A DNA stretch of 48,684 nucleotides from assembly GCA_937916515.1 (NCBI GenBank), contig CALFSX010000328.1:1-48684 (forward strand), written 5' to 3'. A program made the translations under genes and the position numbers. This document shows, piece by piece, positions 2,428 to 9,735 of the stretch. How positions within the stretch are numbered: the stretch's first letter is position 1; the number at the start of each line of letters is the position of its first letter. A model generated the notes under the pieces. The model searched no databases and was not told the DNA's origin. It worked only from the letters and a program-made list of their open reading frames with translations. The stretch comes from an uncultured Planctomycetaceae bacterium (GTDB taxonomy: Bacteria; Planctomycetota; Planctomycetia; Planctomycetales; Planctomycetaceae).

Positions 2428-3582
2428 CTAACGGGGACAAATTGCTGTATCGTTGGGATTCAAACATGGCACGGGTGCCATGATTGCCGGACGACTCATG
2501 GCATACCCCTGAACCAGATCGAATCCTACATCGTGGCAGATTTCCACCATCAAATCCGATTCAACACCTTCCGCAACAGTAATCGCACCTTCGTTGCGAA
2601 CAGCGGTGATGATTGAGCGGAACAGGGCAATTTGTTCCCTTGAAACATCCTGCAGGTCGTGGATCAACGCTGCATCAAACTTGATGTAGTCCAGCGGAGC
2701 ACAGATCAATTCCCGAATTCTCGCCTGCCCAGCTCCAAAATCATCAAACGCCAGCCTGACGTCAAATTCATGCAAAGCATCGCGCAGCTGCCGAACAAAG
2801 CGAGGCTCAGTTACTGACTTCTCGTGAATCTCAAGCACCAAAGGTCTGTTGGGATAGCGTTCTCGCAGCAACCGCATCTGAGGAACAACCGATTCCATCA
2901 GTGGTTCGCTGGGATGCGTATTCAGAAACAGAGGTAACTTCTGAGGCAGACAGATGCTGTGTTCCAGCCCCATTTCCCGGCAAAGCATCGACAATTCGAC
3001 TTCTCTGCCAACGGCTTCTGCCGCCTGAAACATCAGCCCCGGATTGGTGACTCCGTCGACTTCGCTTCTGGCCAGAAATTCGTAGCCGTGAATATCACGA
3101 TCCGACAAATAATGGATCGGCTGGAAACAAGCGCCCAGAGCACGCCTGGCAAACAAGTCCATCAGTCCTTTGGAAGACTTCCGCTGATTGTCAGCGTTGA
3201 TGAACTGAGTCTTTAGAAACGGCTGATCCTGCTTTTCCTGAGCTGTCGAACCTTTGTAATCAACTCGCAAATGCACATCGCCGACTTCAATCCAATCACC
3301 TTCAGACAGCAGAGTGTCCTGATAGATTCGATTGCCGTTAACGTAGGTTCCATTTGTGCTGGACAAGTCTCGAATACAAAGCAGTCCGGCGGATTCAATC
3401 ATTTCAGCGTGTCGAGCGCTCACCACTGACGAAGCCAAAGAAAGCTCAAGCTCAGGACGGCGTCCAATTCGAAAAGGCAGAACCGATATATCTATCGTCT
3501 GCGGCGTCGATTCCTTTTCGATGCTGCCTTTCAATGTCCACGTCGTTTTCGTGGACTTGGATTGGATAAGACTGGTACTCAT
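2428..3582 (-). CDS. FHA-EAL protein (phosphothreonine-binding plus c-di-GMP phosphodiesterase domain)
   Basis: This is a 384-aa soluble protein. Residues about 30-108 form a forkhead-associated domain: R-I-G-R-R, S-x-R-H at 56-59 and S-T-N-G-T at 75-79. FHA domains bind phosphothreonine peptides. Residues about 148-370 form an EAL domain, which hydrolyses c-di-GMP to pGpG. The residues expected for metal and catalysis are present: E168 (as Y-E-F-L), N221, E251, D280 and D281 in FDDFGAG, K301, E338 and Q358, so it is probably active. No GGDEF domain, membrane segment or signal peptide is visible. A paralogue with the same architecture lies at 34767-36023. The gene is divergent from the channel operon that starts near 4154. 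The likely input is phosphorylation by a Ser/Thr kinase (inference). The ATG start begins M-S-T-S-L. Confidence 0.92.
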   Translation of the reverse strand: MSTSLIQSKSTKTTWTLKGSIEKESTPQTIDISVLPFRIGRRPELELSLASSVVSARHAEMIESAGLLCIRDLSSTNGTYVNGNRIYQDTLLSEGDWIEVGDVHLRVDYKGSTAQEKQDQPFLKTQFINADNQRKSSKGLMDLFARRALGACFQPIHYLSDRDIHGYEFLARSEVDGVTNPGLMFQAAEAVGREVELSMLCREMGLEHSICLPQKLPLFLNTHPSEPLMESVVPQMRLLRERYPNRPLVLEIHEKSVTEPRFVRQLRDALHEFDVRLAFDDFGAGQARIRELICAPLDYIKFDAALIHDLQDVSREQIALFRSIITAVRNEGAITVAEGVESDLMVEICHDVGFDLVQGYAMSRPAIMAPVPCLNPNDTAICPR

Positions 3583-4153
3583 TGTTGTAGCTCATTGATG
3601 TAGTATGTTCGGTCACGTGTCTCGTGCTGCTTTTCGTGCGTCTCCGTTTCCGATCGCATGTGTCAGTTCTGATGCCAAATGACACTCAGGGCAAAATCCC
3701 TACCAATGAACGTAAAGCGCCGTTGGCAAAACGGCGAGCCAGTTCTTTGCCAAAGATGCTAAAACTCAACAACGCAATGAACAACTGTGCTGATTAATCT
3801 GCCAAATACGGGATGTTACCCATATCTGAACAAGCCCTATGAAGTATCAAGACCTAAGGCAGGGCGCACGCAGAGTTTGCCGATTCCTCCTCAGCATTTA
3901 GTGAATACAGCTTGCAGACCCCCACCAAAGTACGTTCGTTCCGGTTATTCCGGATTTTCGCTCTCAACCGAATGTGACGATTCTGACGAACAAAGAAAGC
4001 AGCGTACTGGTCGGGGGGCTCGGTGCGCAGGTTGATGACCCCGCGCATTTGTGTTGGCTGTTCCTGGAACAAACCAACATCATGAATGGCAACTGAACGT
4101 CATTCTGTGCGAAACATTCGCCCCCGGTTTGAATGAGATTTTGGGGCGCTACG
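3583..4153. promoter_or_regulatory. divergent intergenic region between FHA-EAL and the channel operon
   Basis: About 570 bp without a credible gene. It must hold promoters for both divergent units. A perfect 7-bp inverted repeat with a 5-base spacer (CGCCGTT GGCAA AACGGCG) lies at 3718-3736. Overlapping short frames on both strands here lack ribosome sites and domain content. Confidence 0.45.
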
Positions 4154-5446
4154 ATGAGCAAGCGAGCATCTTCTGCGGCGGCAATGCGAACAGCCATTGG
4201 TGCAACGATTGGCACGGTTACCTTTTACGCAATTGCCCCAAAGCTGCCACAGGTTGGTGATTTTGTCACACGCTACTTTTGCAGTCACCCTCTGGAATAC
4301 ATCAGCACGGTCATGTTCTTTACCGGCATGACAATTCTGCTGCAGAAGTTCTTACACGTTCGTGGTGAACGACAGGTTCTGGCAAACCTGCGTGAGGCGG
4401 TATCTTCCGGTCTCATGGAAAAATCGAACGACGCTTCTCGCGAAGCGGTTCTTCGGAACTGGTGCGAACAGCTTCCACGAGGCCTGAAGTCAACTCAACT
4501 TTACCAGCGCAGTGCTGACACGTTGCATTACCTGCGTGGTTCCGGGCATCGTGGAGTTGAAGAGCATCTTCGATACCTGGCAGAACTTGCCAGCGAACGA
4601 CTGCACCAGACCTATGCCACTATTCGCACGATCACGTGGGCCATTCCAATTCTGGGTTTTCTGGGTACCGTCATCGGTATCACCATGGCAATCGCCAACG
4701 TGACTCCCGAACAACTGGATTCATCACTGGTTGAAGTGACAGGCGGCCTGGCCGTGGCCTTCGACACGACCGCACTGGCTCTTGGCATGTCGATTGTCCT
4801 GGTGTTCGCCTCGTTCATTGTTGAACGTAGTGAGCAGAACGTGCTGAATGACGTCGAAGAGTTCGGAATCAACTCCATACTGCCATGGTTTGGCAGTGAC
4901 GCCAGTTCAAAAGAACTACGCGATTCCAGTCCCACCGAAATGGCAAGTCAATTGATTGGCTTCCAGTCCGGGATTTGGGCCGAACAACTGGCATCCGTCA
5001 GAGAAACATGGACCGAAGTTTTGCAGCAGCATGCTCGCCAGCTGGCTGCCGGACTGGATGACGAAATTCAGCGAAGTCTGAAGATTCATCGAATGACCAC
5101 TTCTGAAGCCAGAGACGCCTACACTGAAGCGTTGCAGGTCTCCTCGCAGGCCGTCGTTCAGCAGACTGAACAGATACTGGCCAGGTTCGAAGATCGCGTG
5201 GCTTCGTGGCAGGATGCAATACAGCACAGCAGCCTTGCCTCTGCCGAACAAAGTGAAGCGCTGCATCAGCTTGGGGCTATCCTGCTGCGAATGACAGAAT
5301 CTGAGGAACGCCTGGCCAACCTGCAAAAGCTGCTGAACGAAAACCTTCACAGCCTGCAACTGGCCAATACGATGGAACAGTCAGCCAACAGCCTGACGGC
5401 AGCAGTACATATCCTGACGGCTCGCACGACTCACAGAGCCGCATAA
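4154..5446 (+). CDS. MotA/TolQ/ExbB-family proton-channel subunit with long C-terminal helical tail
   Basis: This 430-aa inner-membrane protein has predicted membrane segments at about 14-30, 48-67, 159-183 and 196-224. The third contains G-F-L-G-T-V-I-G-I-T, matching the G-L-L-G-T-V-x-G-I segment of TolQ/ExbB. The fourth contains A-F-D-T-T-A-L-A-L-G, matching the Thr-bearing pore helix of the family. After the last membrane helix come about 200 residues of polar, Gln/Glu-rich coiled-coil sequence facing the cytoplasm, longer than usual for TolQ or ExbB. ATG 4154 is preferred because a GGGG purine run at 4143-4146 precedes it; ATG 4133 would add 7 residues. It is followed after 57 bp by two single-pass proteins that look like its B-type partners. 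It is probably the pentameric A subunit of an ion-driven motor. The work it drives is unknown. Confidence 0.85.
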   Translation: MSKRASSAAAMRTAIGATIGTVTFYAIAPKLPQVGDFVTRYFCSHPLEYISTVMFFTGMTILLQKFLHVRGERQVLANLREAVSSGLMEKSNDASREAVLRNWCEQLPRGLKSTQLYQRSADTLHYLRGSGHRGVEEHLRYLAELASERLHQTYATIRTITWAIPILGFLGTVIGITMAIANVTPEQLDSSLVEVTGGLAVAFDTTALALGMSIVLVFASFIVERSEQNVLNDVEEFGINSILPWFGSDASSKELRDSSPTEMASQLIGFQSGIWAEQLASVRETWTEVLQQHARQLAAGLDDEIQRSLKIHRMTTSEARDAYTEALQVSSQAVVQQTEQILARFEDRVASWQDAIQHSSLASAEQSEALHQLGAILLRMTESEERLANLQKLLNENLHSLQLANTMEQSANSLTAAVHILTARTTHRAA

Positions 5447-5503
5447 TACGACTGGCAGTCCGGTAGTTACGTATCCGATACGCAGGGGCACTGAAGAACA
5501 GCT

Positions 5504-8380
5504 ATGGCTCGTCAACGAACGCAAAACGCAATCTCATTGTTTCCATTTCTTGCAGTACTTGTCTGCACGATGGGTGCGCTGATTTTGTTGCTGCTGGTGA
5601 CGACACGCCGCATCCGCAACGACCAGATGGTGGTCGCGAACGTAGAAGCTTCTGAAACGAGTGACCAGACCGACGCCAACGTTCCTGCCGATGACGACAC
5701 CGCAACAGCGAAAGACTTCGTCAGCTCAACATCTGACACCGAAAAGGCAGTCGGCGATAACAAGCTGCTTCCTTCGCCCACAATTCCACGATTGTCGCTG
5801 CAGGTTCCAAACAAGAATCCATTTGCCGAGACGAATTCAGCTCAGGAAGCCACGCCTGTTGTATCAGCCACACTGTTTGACCTTCGCAGTAACGTAGACC
5901 GACTGCAGGCCGAACTGAACAAAGAAACGGCGCGACATGTAGATCTGCTGAAACAGATTGAACTCACTCGACAGGAACTGCTGGCGGCAGACACCATTGA
6001 ACAATCCGGCAAAGAGATGCAAAAGCTGGCATCACTGCGGCGCGAAGAAGCTGATCTGAACAATGAACTATTACGCCGTGCTGAAGAACTTGATCAACTT
6101 CAGGACGATCTTGAACTGGCGTCGAAGTCGACCGAAGATGGTGAACTAATTCTGCGTCAGCGAGAATCCGCGTTAATCAGTCTACGACAACTGGCAAAAG
6201 AAACTGGACAAAGCGAAATCGCCGGAACCGATAAGACGATTGTCGAATTCACCAACGCAACGGGCACACAGCGAGTTCCAATTATTGTGGACGTCACAGC
6301 GGATGGTTACGAATTTCTGCCATCCGGCATTCGACTGACCAAGTCCGACATGGAAGGCTTCCCGGGCAACGACAATCCGTTGCTGTCCGCCGTAATGGCC
6401 GTTTATCAGCACCGTTTTCCTAATGCAATTTCGGCCAGACCCTACGTTTTATTGCTGGTTCGACCAGACGGAAGTCTTCCCTTCTATACGGCTCAGCGAG
6501 TTCTTACTGAAGGCAACGTACATTTCGGCTATGAACTGCTGGAGCAGGATCGCATCATCGATGCCGGACAACGAAGCCTCGAAGAAGCTCAGGCAGCTCG
6601 TGAATCGGTACTGGCCGCGATCGATCGACGATCAAGACTTTACGGCGGCCTGATGGCTGAAGTGCGAGAATTGCTGCAACGGCAGGAAGATGCACAGTCT
6701 CCACAGCCACGACAGGCTCGCGTTCTTCCTGATGGACGGATCGTGATGGCCGGTGAAGACGCCGACGGCTATGACGGCAAGTTCTATGCAGGCGGTACTC
6801 CGAAGCCGACACAATCAATAGAAAACAGAAGACAAAATTCACCGCCATCCCGCTCTCCGTTCTACGCCGAAGCGACAGAAATGGATCGATCGCTGGGGGG
6901 CGCTGAGGGCCAGTCAGCCACAGGTCAGGCATTGCCACCAGAAAACGGCGAACGAGAGCTTGCAGACTGGATGAAGCTGCTTGACAAAAGCCAATCAACC
7001 AAATCACCTGATGCGACAGTTGCTGCGGGCGACTCAGCGACAGCAACAAGCAGCAATTTCAACAGCGACAATCCGTTTGCGACAACTGCCACAGACGCTC
7101 AATCTGCAGACGCTCCGCATACGGCTAATTCGCTTGCAGCGGCTTCCACAACAAATGGCTCGCTGCCGATGTCGCTGGATGACGTGCCAACCAACGCGAT
7201 GGGCGAAGCCAACTTTGGCGATGCAGTTACGCCACAAGGTATACCCGCAGGCGACTTCCGATCCAACATGTCAGCCATCCTGGGGCGATCGGAAGCGATT
7301 TCTGGAAATATGGGAGTTGGCGGCACAGTTCCTTCCATAAACCACGGCCAATTGGGTGTTGATGTTGCAGGTGAACCACACAACACAAGCCCTGGCTTTG
7401 AAAATCCGCTCATAACGTCAAACACAACTGCAAATCCTTCAGCCGCCGAATCCAGTCAACCATCGTGGCTTCAAACGCCAACCGCAGAGTCGGATCCTGA
7501 CAGTGAAAATCCCGCCCGTGACAATTCTCAACCAGCGTTCGGCTGGCCAGGTCTGGACGCCGCAACGTCCGGACAGGCAACCCGCACCGCCGATGCTGCT
7601 GAGAGTTCGTCACATGTCAACTTCGCGGACGAGTCTGCGGCGACCGCATTCGCCGCACCGTCCGCTGAAGTTGCTTCGCCCGGACAGACGCCGCCTGCAG
7701 CAGTCAGCCCCCTAAACACCACCGCGTCCACAGAACCGGGTGGAAGCAGCGTCACCGTTGGATCAGCGGTCGGTGACAACATGAGTGGCCCCAATCGTGG
7801 CAACGCTCCTGTTTCTGAAGCACAATTGATGCTGCAAAAATTCCTGCAGCAGGCTGAACAGGAGAAAGAACTCCAGCAAGCACAAACTCAAGCACAGCAG
7901 CCGGATCCGTTTCTGCTTTCACTGTTGACACAAAGTCGTCAAACGCATCAGACAAGGTTAGCAGGACGTTATCCCGTTACCGTTGCTCTGGATCAGAATC
8001 AATTGACGATTGGTCGTTACGAAGCCATCGACGTCAGTGAATACGATGACCAACAGATTCTGGCGGTTACGCTTGAAGGCCTGGCAGCTGAAATGGATCA
8101 GCAAAAACCTGCGGATACTGAATTCGCTTTGCCTATGGTCGACTTCCGTATCGGTCGCGATGCCTGGCAGCGTCAGAATCACCTGGCCAGACAGCTCGAT
8201 GAGATGAACGTGCCGACGCGTTCCGTCCAAAACTGGTTCGATCAGCAAAACCGCGATTCATCAGTGGACGTTAAACCACCAACGCTAAAACGCGCCGCAG
8301 ATAGTCCCTCCATCTCACCTTTGCATGATCCAGCCGAACCGATCGAAGTCAACGCACCTCAGCGAAGGAATTCAATATGA
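5504..8380 (+). CDS. large single-pass envelope protein, putative B-type partner lacking the membrane Asp
   Basis: This 958-aa protein has a very short cytoplasmic N-terminus, one membrane helix at about 11-33 (F-P-F-L-A-V-L-V-C-T-M-G) and a long outside portion. That portion contains a coiled coil at about 120-230, a folded domain at about 235-360, a low-complexity Ser/Thr/Ala/Pro/Asn region at about 400-790, and a C-terminal domain from about 820. The membrane helix aligns with that of ExbD/TolR/MotB, but alanine stands where those families carry the proton-carrying Asp. The segments near 312-350 and 877-915 resemble each other and the end of the next protein. The gene sits 57 bp behind the channel gene, and its stop overlaps the next start (ATGA). 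No known family is recognised. It is likely a structural B subunit of the motor, reaching across the periplasm or to the cell wall. Confidence 0.82.
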   Translation: MARQRTQNAISLFPFLAVLVCTMGALILLLLVTTRRIRNDQMVVANVEASETSDQTDANVPADDDTATAKDFVSSTSDTEKAVGDNKLLPSPTIPRLSLQVPNKNPFAETNSAQEATPVVSATLFDLRSNVDRLQAELNKETARHVDLLKQIELTRQELLAADTIEQSGKEMQKLASLRREEADLNNELLRRAEELDQLQDDLELASKSTEDGELILRQRESALISLRQLAKETGQSEIAGTDKTIVEFTNATGTQRVPIIVDVTADGYEFLPSGIRLTKSDMEGFPGNDNPLLSAVMAVYQHRFPNAISARPYVLLLVRPDGSLPFYTAQRVLTEGNVHFGYELLEQDRIIDAGQRSLEEAQAARESVLAAIDRRSRLYGGLMAEVRELLQRQEDAQSPQPRQARVLPDGRIVMAGEDADGYDGKFYAGGTPKPTQSIENRRQNSPPSRSPFYAEATEMDRSLGGAEGQSATGQALPPENGERELADWMKLLDKSQSTKSPDATVAAGDSATATSSNFNSDNPFATTATDAQSADAPHTANSLAAASTTNGSLPMSLDDVPTNAMGEANFGDAVTPQGIPAGDFRSNMSAILGRSEAISGNMGVGGTVPSINHGQLGVDVAGEPHNTSPGFENPLITSNTTANPSAAESSQPSWLQTPTAESDPDSENPARDNSQPAFGWPGLDAATSGQATRTADAAESSSHVNFADESAATAFAAPSAEVASPGQTPPAAVSPLNTTASTEPGGSSVTVGSAVGDNMSGPNRGNAPVSEAQLMLQKFLQQAEQEKELQQAQTQAQQPDPFLLSLLTQSRQTHQTRLAGRYPVTVALDQNQLTIGRYEAIDVSEYDDQQILAVTLEGLAAEMDQQKPADTEFALPMVDFRIGRDAWQRQNHLARQLDEMNVPTRSVQNWFDQQNRDSSVDVKPPTLKRAADSPSISPLHDPAEPIEVNAPQRRNSI

Positions 8381-9735
8381 GTCGTCGCAGAGCAACGGGC
8401 GACCAGGAATTCGGGTCCGATTCGTTTTTGGATATTATCGCCAACATCGTCGGCATTCTGATTATTCTTATCGTCGTCGTGGGCGTAAAGGTTGCTCGCC
8501 AACCGCCGTTGACGCCTGAGCTTTCAACGTCGACGGCGGCGGTGGTTGCACTATCGGAACCGACGAACAACTGGGACGACGATCTGCTGATTGATCTTCC
8601 AGATGTTGAACCGATTCAAGTTTCCGAACAAGCTCTGGAACTGCCAGATCCATTTGCGATGCCAAACCTTTCGGATGCAGGCAACGCAGCTTCCGAAAAG
8701 AATGCCCAGGAAGACGTCCACGACGACACCACAGACTTCACGCCATTAGCCGCCGCCCTGGAATCTCTGACGGAACCGGAAATCGCCAAGGCCACAGAAA
8801 AATCGCTTAGTGACGAAGCTCAACTGAATCAGCAAATCGAATCGCTGACGCTGGAACTCAACTTTGTCCAGAACAGCATTATTGACTCAGAACGCACGCT
8901 GGAAGAACTGCAAGCCGAGCTGCAAAACCTGCATACCTATGCTCAACTTGCAGAAGCCCGAACGGAAGGCATCGCCGCCGAAGAACTGCGACTCACAAAC
9001 CAGATCAGCACTTTAAAAGATGAGCTATCATTGAAGGAGAAGACGGCAACTTCCATAAATGCCACGTTAACATCGCTCACAAGTCGCCAGAAATACGTTT
9101 CGGACGCACTGGACCAGGTCACCGAAGAAACCAGACAACTAAGAGAATCGCTGGAGCAATCGGAGGCGACAAAACCGATCGGAGAACGAATCAATCATCG
9201 ACTTTCTCCGGTAAGCCGTTCGGTTCAGGAAGGCGAACTTCACTTCCGTATGGCGGCAGGTCGGATCGCCCACATACCGCTGGAAGCACTTCTGGAACGA
9301 CTTCGCAGTCAGGTAGCGTCACGCCGCAGCGTGGTCGCGAAGTTTCATCGGTATGAAGGCATGGTTGGTCCCGAAGGTGGCTTCCACATGAAGTACACCG
9401 TCCAAAGGGACTCCATGCCGCCTTTGCAGGCTTTGCAGCAGGGGCAAAGCGGTTATCGAATCAGCGTTTCGCGATGGTCCGTGCTGCCAGCAGAAACATT
9501 GAACGCCGAAACAGTCGACGCCGCCGTAAAAGTTGGCAGCCGCTTTCGTCAGATACTTGAAGCGACTGAACCAGATACGGTAGTAACAATCTGGCTATAT
9601 CCGGACGACTTTCAATACTTCCATCAAATCCGCGAACTCGCTCATCGGCTGAATCTAAGAGTAGCCGCTCGCCCGTTGCCGGAAGGTGTTGAAATTGCGG
9701 GGTCACCCAATGGAAGTCGTTCTTCGTCGCAATAG
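8377..9735 (+). CDS. single-pass envelope protein, putative ExbD/TolR/MotB-like subunit with conserved membrane Asp
   Basis: This is a 452-aa protein. The N-terminus carries S-D-S-F-L-D-I-I-A-N-I-V-G followed by a strongly hydrophobic helix ending near residue 40. D19 sits at the place of the essential Asp of ExbD (P-F-I-D-V-M-L). Then come an acidic linker, a long coiled coil at about 140-275 and a C-terminal folded domain at about 290-445 with V-T-I-W-L-Y-P-D-D. That segment resembles the ExbD/TolR periplasmic fold and two segments of the preceding 958-aa protein. The start overlaps the upstream stop by ATGA, so translation is coupled and stoichiometry probably matters. There is no OmpA-type peptidoglycan-binding domain, which separates it from MotB and ZorB. 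It is probably the proton-conducting B subunit. Confidence 0.82.
   Translation: MSRRRATGDQEFGSDSFLDIIANIVGILIILIVVVGVKVARQPPLTPELSTSTAAVVALSEPTNNWDDDLLIDLPDVEPIQVSEQALELPDPFAMPNLSDAGNAASEKNAQEDVHDDTTDFTPLAAALESLTEPEIAKATEKSLSDEAQLNQQIESLTLELNFVQNSIIDSERTLEELQAELQNLHTYAQLAEARTEGIAAEELRLTNQISTLKDELSLKEKTATSINATLTSLTSRQKYVSDALDQVTEETRQLRESLEQSEATKPIGERINHRLSPVSRSVQEGELHFRMAAGRIAHIPLEALLERLRSQVASRRSVVAKFHRYEGMVGPEGGFHMKYTVQRDSMPPLQALQQGQSGYRISVSRWSVLPAETLNAETVDAAVKVGSRFRQILEATEPDTVVTIWLYPDDFQYFHQIRELAHRLNLRVAARPLPEGVEIAGSPNGSRSSSQ

Follow-up and report, generated by a model that had tools for sequence, protein, structure and literature searches.

The window, by which we mean the whole 48,684-nucleotide stretch of DNA analysed here, comes from contig C328 of the 8.33 Mb genome of an uncultured Planctomycetaceae bacterium, and it carries three genes, here called A, B1 and B2, that probably encode the parts of a single ion-driven motor. 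By their open reading frame (ORF) coordinates the three lie in the same direction at 4133–5446 (A, 437 amino acids (aa)), 5504–8380 (B1, 958 aa) and 8377–9735 (B2, 452 aa). An earlier note, made from the sequence alone, had described a three-gene unit at this place, and all three reading frames are indeed present; the start that it gave for A, 4154, is an internal codon (Met8) of an ORF that begins at 4133. Its translational coupling by ATGA applies to B1 and B2 and fails for A and B1: the latter two are 57 nt apart, which leaves B1-B2 as the one junction of coupled type. The features of the three genes are given below, with transmembrane (TM) helices and domains placed by hydropathy, by profile matches or by AlphaFold2 (AF2) models, whose confidence is expressed as the predicted local distance difference test (pLDDT).

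4133–5446, + strand: A, a MotA/TolQ/ExbB-type ring subunit of 437 aa with a C-terminal tail of ~200 residues (PF01618, E = 2.3e-13).
4622–4831, + strand: TM3-TM4 of A, residues 164–233, with Thr179, Thr213 and the TM4 acid Asp211 (codon 4763–4765).
4832–5443, + strand: tail of A, residues 234–437 (partial ZorA profile match and 8vvn profile match).
5504–8380, + strand: B1, a large single-pass B-type protein of 958 aa without a TM Asp (no Pfam match above cut-off).
5537–5611, + strand: predicted TM helix of B1, ~residues 12–36, with Ala17 (codon 5552–5554) at the Asp site (hydropathy; AF2 helix 15–50; profile alignment with the B2 TM).
5852–6211, + strand: predicted coiled-coil stalk of B1, residues 117–236 (AF2 helices 117–161 and 165–236).
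6233–6562, + strand: predicted alpha/beta domain 1 of B1, residues 244–353 (AF2 block with pLDDT 80–97 from residue 261 and 50–67 before it).
7964–8227, + strand: predicted alpha/beta domain 2 of B1, residues 821–908, with strand order b-b-a-b-a-b (AF2).
8377–8380, + strand: ATGA stop/start overlap of B1 and B2 (ORF coordinates; a −4 junction occurs in 37 of 109 non-redundant loci).
8377–9735, + strand: B2, a single-pass B-type protein of 452 aa with a TM Asp (present in 95 of 100 genomes from its family).
8416–8499, + strand: predicted TM helix of B2, residues 14–41, with Asp19 (codon 8431–8433) (AF2).
8773–9165, + strand: predicted coiled-coil stalk of B2, residues 133–263 (AF2 helix 133–263).
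9184–9732, + strand: predicted C-terminal globular domain of B2, residues 270–452 (AF2; most 10-residue blocks with pLDDT 94–98).

The product of A matches PF01618 with 50.5 bits in the Pfam scan (cut-off 22.9), in agreement with its description in the earlier note as a MotA/TolQ/ExbB-like channel with a long tail. Its hydrophobic stretches fall at residues 164–192 and 204–233, with the expected first two TM helices below the same hydropathy limit, and ~200 residues follow the last of them, with a C-terminal block that is conserved in the A protein alignment. By analogy with the MotA/ZorA fold, this tail would lie on the cytoplasmic side. A PADLOC ZorA profile matches A in part, over residues 154–404 (E = 2.8e-9), while the curated ZorA2 profile reaches 16.6 bits against a cut-off of 700. 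In a profile search of the PDB the sole ring-protein matches were 8vvn and 8vvi, named there as MotA/TolQ/ExbB proteins, which we take to be Zorya structures; the 8vvn match extends through the tail, and helical apolipoproteins match the tail about equally well. Thr179 and Thr213 are each present in 100 of 101 A proteins, so that A has two ring features of the superfamily of 5:2 ion-driven motors, the PF01618 fold and the pore Thr residues. At residue 211, 90 of these proteins have Asp, 10 have Asn and 1 has Gly, as against L, I, F or W in six ExbB/MotA homologues of the same genome. A scan of viral contigs with A found no relatives.

Hydropathy shows a single hydrophobic stretch in each of B1 and B2, close to the N terminus. 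The AF2 model of B2 runs from the TM helix through a linker and a 130-residue helix to a confident C-terminal domain, and that of B1 (mean pLDDT 62) is mostly disordered over residues ~420–770, ahead of domain 2. The two alpha/beta domains of B1 are similar to each other by profile (probability 74%, E = 2.7e-5). Beyond apparent coiled-coil noise, neither protein belongs to any family in Pfam, NCBIfam or PADLOC, and OmpA, MotB_plug and ExbD are absent from the weak Pfam matches listed for them. The AF2 models had no Foldseek match in the PDB at E ≤ 0.001 (TolR 5by4 stood at rank 32 for B1 with E = 0.26, which is not significant), and a PDB profile search with B2 brought up coiled coils. The Pfam searches proposed in the earlier note therefore give PF01618 for A and neither PF02472 nor PF13677 for B1 and B2. 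Its statements that the B proteins have no OmpA-type cell-wall domain and that the unit is not MotAB agree with the absence of a PF13677 plug, of a PF00691 wall domain and of any Pfam match above cut-off, and with the Foldseek result. Its exclusion of ZorAB stands for the B proteins, neither of which matches ZorB in Pfam or PADLOC, and has to be softened for the ring protein with its partial ZorA matches. As it had also observed, no Ton/Tol partner genes came to light: the Pfam scan found no Ton, Tol, Pal or vWA component among the 16 window proteins scanned.

The two B proteins differ at one residue within the membrane. Residue 19 of B2 is Asp, and a profile alignment of the two TM regions pairs it with Ala17 of B1 (probability 94%, score 35.9, against at most 15.3 for 40 column-shuffled profiles), from which we conclude that the B1 and B2 TM helices are homologous. 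The claim that only the 452-aa protein has an Asp at this place is thus borne out. The B1 TM region keeps a motif of its own, LFPFLAVLxCxMG.

We surveyed the distribution of the genes from B2. With a B2 profile, matches turned up in 212 of 248 genomes from the class and in 57 of 246 from the phylum, and many of those outside the class are weak and cover the coil. In 40 loci of the same family chosen by B2, B1 stands beside B2 in all 40 and A is nearby in 36, the other four genomes having a full-length A elsewhere; a further 24 loci, found with the B2 profile in other families of the class, all have B1 together with B2, and 19 of them have A close by. Scanning named genomes gave 327 confirmed loci, and 78 of the best 80 are planctomycete by title; the closest named B2 relatives among these best 80 of 327 are Fuerstiella metagenome-assembled genomes (Planctomycetota, Planctomycetia) with 49% identity. 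The A-B1-B2 trio is conserved across the class Planctomycetia, and the neighbourhood survey that the earlier note had suggested finds the two B-like genes in the company of the channel gene rather than apart from it.

The window and the 40, 24 and 80 loci make 145, which fall into 129 groups at 95% identity, and both TM sites are readable in 114 of these (two f81 loci without the motif, described below, stand outside the counts). B1 and B2 adjoin on the same strand in all 114, with an open-frame gap of −319 to 314 nt. The B2 site is Asp in 114/114, and at the B1 site 97 loci have Ala, 12 Asp, 3 Thr and 2 Ser, so that one TM helix with a mid-membrane Asp is present in B2 in every readable locus and lacking in B1 in 102 of 114. 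The 80 named loci came from the search pattern DSFLD[VI][VIL][AT]N, which includes the B2 Asp, and they are therefore unable to show its loss; 52 of the 114 were selected in this way and 62 came from other searches. Among these 62, the B2 residue is Asp in 62, and the B1 residue is Ala in 52, Asp in 6, Thr in 2 and Ser in 2. One Asp is the prevailing state of the putative axle in the class. On the B2 tree, the Asp of B1 takes 7 changes to explain and occurs in scattered places (for example, a six-locus B1-Asp clade lies beside Ala loci within a nine-locus clade, with supports of 97–100), and because of this scatter B1 Asp looks like a repeated gain from a prevailing one-Asp state, a direction that we infer from an unrooted tree.

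The length of the B proteins between the membrane and their first folded domain gave a further comparison. The spacer between the TM site and that domain measures 148–292 residues in B1 and 140–291 in B2, and the two lengths are correlated across the 114 loci (raw r = 0.90; independent contrasts r = 0.85). The control lengths, the internal linker of B1 (n = 112) and the tail of A (n = 101), have contrasts r of 0.06–0.14 with the spacers. The raw spacer correlation is 0.85 in the 62 loci from other searches and 0.95 in the 52 selected by pattern. Under a split with a simple coil score, the linkers alone covary (contrasts r = 0.74, standard deviations (sd) of 28 and 29); a split by proline-free runs had failed as a proxy, and the scored split was used in its place. 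These matched spacers strongly, if not conclusively, favour a B1-B2 heterodimer in the ring.

The ring protein occurs in two types, and the type is known for 107 of the 114 loci. Type I rings typically have Gly182, Ile183, Thr184, Gly205 and Asp211, and type II rings have His182, Phe183, Gly184, usually Glu205, and Asn211. On the A tree the type II rings (15 rows) fall into a single clade with support 100, and on the B2 tree they need 10 changes, which indicates that the type II A gene was exchanged repeatedly; it is not upstream of B1 in 14/15. B1 Asp is found in 11 of the 15 loci with a type II ring versus 1 of the 92 with type I, and the type I exception, L049, has an unusual ring with Met172 and Ala212. 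In a test on 7 independent pairs, B1 Asp accompanied type II in 3.7 and ran counter to it in 0.0, and 3.3 showed no difference. On the simplest reading of this association the B1 TM is in some contact with the ring, and the link of ring type with the B1 residue favours the heterodimer in the ring. A is upstream in 2 of 12 B1-Asp loci versus 93 of 102 others (Fisher p = 7.6e-8); as an operon effect, this joint occurrence of a displaced A and B1 Asp was rejected, since the swap of ring type explains it better and it is not significant on the tree.

Family f81 has kept the two B genes without a close A. In the stretch read around each locus (about 5 kb upstream for most, less at contig ends, and mostly little downstream), A is present in 0 of 22 f81 loci, and the four f81 genomes that were searched gave only remote A matches (E = 2.9e-21 to 5.8e-24), compared with E values of 1.4e-64 or below for the A genes that lie unlinked in the genomes of six A-less loci. 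B2 is found in 22/22 and B1 in 21/22, with an N-terminal hydrophobic stretch in 22 and 20, respectively. At least 21 of the 22 have lost the motif Asp; in two loci Gly stands in its place and the rest of the motif is nearly intact. The f81 spacers have r = 0.59 (n = 20, without tree correction). This loss of the motif Asp where A is not close again favours, on comparative grounds, a B1-B2 heterodimer in the ring.

We consider it reasonably probable that A, B1 and B2 together make up a single ion-driven motor of 5:2 type, with an axle of one B1 helix and one B2 helix. A ring of A subunits would surround this axle, giving a stoichiometry of 5:1:1 with the B1 TM in the ring pore, and the stalks of B1 and B2 would pair in the periplasm to give a heterodimeric coiled coil. 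B2 Asp19 would be the single proton-carrying residue in most of the class, with the B1 Ala permanently neutral. Proton flow would then drive rotation in such a way that the single Asp loads, passes and unloads once per ring subunit, at one proton per 72 degrees and five per turn, and the two periplasmic ends, which are unequal, would transmit force to different targets. The cellular role may be the energising of some envelope process. In the published turnstile scheme, by comparison, two axle sites swap protonation, with one proton per 36 degrees and ten per turn, and in one version rotation takes place only with both sites protonated (accessible text of PMC9389320). The one-Asp heterodimer had been put forward in the earlier note; to it our comparison adds the covariation of the spacers, the link between ring type and the B1 residue and the generality of the one-Asp state. 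A wider version we hold only tentatively, at somewhat short of an even chance: that the motor throughout the class has an obligate heterodimeric one-site axle (72 degrees, five protons per turn), that its acid count is tuned to the ring, with a silent partner tending to gain Asp after ring exchange, and that its relatives make up a natural series with zero, one and two acids.

Several observations weigh against the heterodimeric motor. Matched spacer lengths may also reflect two separate homodimers that span a common distance, and because a shared distance to span could give the same pattern, the covariation is not conclusive. The coils themselves do not covary (contrasts r = −0.02; means of 107 and 98, sd of 16 and 22), the spacer correlation drops to 0.53 once the 30 largest contrasts are left out, the cruder split by proline-free runs gave r = −0.11 for the runs and 0.36 for the linkers, and between close relatives the indels often fail to match (up to 15 versus −4 residues). 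The independent-pairs test had a median p of 0.125 and was underpowered, and 4 loci with a type II ring keep Ala or Ser in B1. The short-trio loci L171 and L177 have Asn211 without Asp in B1, which means that residue 211 alone is no simple compensation. The B2 tree was made by a quick method and is unrooted, with support below 80 for 38 of its 111 inner branches. When the domains of the B proteins were compared by profile with seven ExbD proteins from this genome, no match was significant, and the strand order of B1 domain 2, which presumably resembles that of ExbD/TolR, is thus a mere resemblance. Finally, a Glu is found in 7 of the 22 f81 B2 helices, at other positions as judged by eye, and a remote ring homologue with a B-like neighbour of its own occurs in 4/4 f81 genomes searched; this is perhaps a separate, further ring-plus-B unit, and it is possible that it represents a strongly changed ring serving the f81 B1-B2.

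As far as is known, homodimeric B proteins are the rule in solved 5:2 motors, and by that rule a B2 homodimer would be the axle with two Asp, leaving B1, which is without the Asp, as a transducer at the ring edge (like TonB or TolA) or as a dead paralogue. The large disordered and alpha/beta periplasmic parts of B1 are transducer-like, and B1 is less conserved than B2 (mean column identity of 20% versus 37%). Such a role sits poorly, however, with a B1 TM that is homologous to the B2 TM and conserves its motif, with a B1 Asp that appears in several scattered lineages, mostly with a type II ring, and with a B1 spacer that tracks that of B2, and we regard this arrangement as unlikely. Two motors sharing the ring, one of A with a B2 homodimer and one of A with a B1 homodimer, would likewise have stalks that match by their common span, so that a common periplasmic ruler also predicts the spacers, and lineages with B1 Asp could have an active B1 homodimer. 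In 97 of 114 loci (102 with Thr and Ser), nevertheless, the proton site of a B1 homodimer would be without an acid, and the two genes adjoin on the same strand in every locus; we judge the two-motor arrangement highly improbable.

A third alternative accepts the B1-B2 heterodimer and gives up rotation, the complex being a gated channel or envelope scaffold with a membrane end that senses or leaks ions. It draws on f81, where B1 and B2, with their hydrophobic N-terminal stretches, are kept without the motif Asp and a close A, so that the periplasmic parts seem useful without the ring. Conserved pore Thr residues are the usual signature of proton-coupled members such as MotAB, ExbBD and TolQR, and their conservation in A speaks against this alternative, as does the invariance of the B2 Asp in 114 loci (A is not in view in all of them, and 52 were selected by the Asp pattern). 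We think it quite improbable, if less so than two motors on a shared ring. If the heterodimeric one-site motor is real, it would together with its two-site and zero-site relatives allow the proton-site question to be tested on natural proteins, and an axle with differing ends could deliver force with polarity. It would also supply a testable mechanism for three genes of which one, B2, occurs in 95 of the 100 genomes searched in a single planctomycete family.

In 20 of 69 named loci (L206:92-4525 (−) and 19 similar loci) a conserved protein of ~1350 aa is encoded close to A on the opposite strand, and this protein is present in 22 of 24 genomes searched; the copy in the genome of the window is on C200, unlinked, and one copy that was scanned has no Pfam match. 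As a partner it was rejected: it occurs in G070, G309 and G318, in which A or a strong B2 was not found, and is absent from two f81 genomes. Because its distribution differs from that of the trio and it is unlinked in the genome of the window, it is not counted in the system. G070 (same family, a single contig, 99% complete) has no A match and a weak B2 match while keeping the ~1350-aa protein, and seems to have lost the trio. Trios of the Planctomycetia type were also seen on contigs named Candidatus Kuenenia or Candidatus Nealsonbacteria (L210, L242, L244, L256 and L259), and these labels are probably wrong names or bins. In f81 locus L160, the gene upstream of B1 (5876–8038, −) encodes a 720-aa protein where A usually stands, by eye with a kinase-like N terminus and several hydrophobic stretches. 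The B-like neighbour of the remote ring homologue in f81 loci L280, L282, L284 and L285 has the look GEDSFVAVVVTKLTG, with Ala by eye at the place of the Asp. Elsewhere in the genome of the window, L183 (contig C38, ORF 250–1890) is a 547-aa frame with, by eye, a kinase-like N-terminal half and a C-terminal ExbD domain. Within the window, a protein with an FHA domain fused to an EAL domain (Pfam) is encoded at 2428–3582 (−), divergent from A.

Among known systems, the trio shares with ExbBD, TolQR and MotAB a PF01618 ring, conserved pore Thr residues and, in B2, an N-terminal TM with a mid-membrane Asp; it differs from them in having two B genes, whose products are unrecognised by PF02472, PF13677 and PF00691. 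The long-tailed ring protein and its partial ZorA matches recall ZorAB of Zorya, from which the trio is set apart by the lack of an OmpA-type ZorB, by a ZorA2 score far below cut-off and by the presence of B2 in 95 of 100 genomes of the family, unlike a mobile defence island. A like layout, one MotA/TolQ/ExbB ring gene beside two different B-type genes, occurs in the gliding motor AglR-AglQ-AglS of Myxococcus xanthus, in which AglQ and AglS are short PF02472 proteins, both with the Asp (PMC3169522 and PMC9389320, in their accessible text), whereas the B proteins of the window are long, lie outside PF02472 and usually have the Asp only in B2. Whether AglQ and AglS form homo- or heterodimers is not known according to the accessible text of PMC9389320, and the statement of the earlier note that known motors use a B homodimer needs qualifying for this system with two B proteins.

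A tolQ-like gene with paired tolR-like genes is also in print for PVC (Planctomycetota-Verrucomicrobiota-Chlamydiota) bacteria, in clusters with a vWA gene (PMC12204202, in its accessible text). These have the same ring-plus-two-B layout in the same phylum; the window differs in having no vWA among the 16 proteins scanned, a much longer B1 and one Asp. The genome of the window has short paralogous trios at L166 (C339) and L176 (C262), each with a vWA protein and with GYF_2 domains nearby; in their A and B proteins these trios are distantly related to that of the window, and by eye both of their B proteins have the Asp. In the open-licence literature searched, including the accessible text of PMC12505986, PMC12215075, PMC8986121 and PMC12905483, there was no report of a one-Asp or heterodimeric B axle. 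A ring gene with two different B genes is thus known already, from AglRQS and from the paired tolR-like genes of PVC bacteria, and what the window and its relatives add is the long unnamed B families, the prevailing one-Asp axle, the matched stalks and the exchange of the ring.

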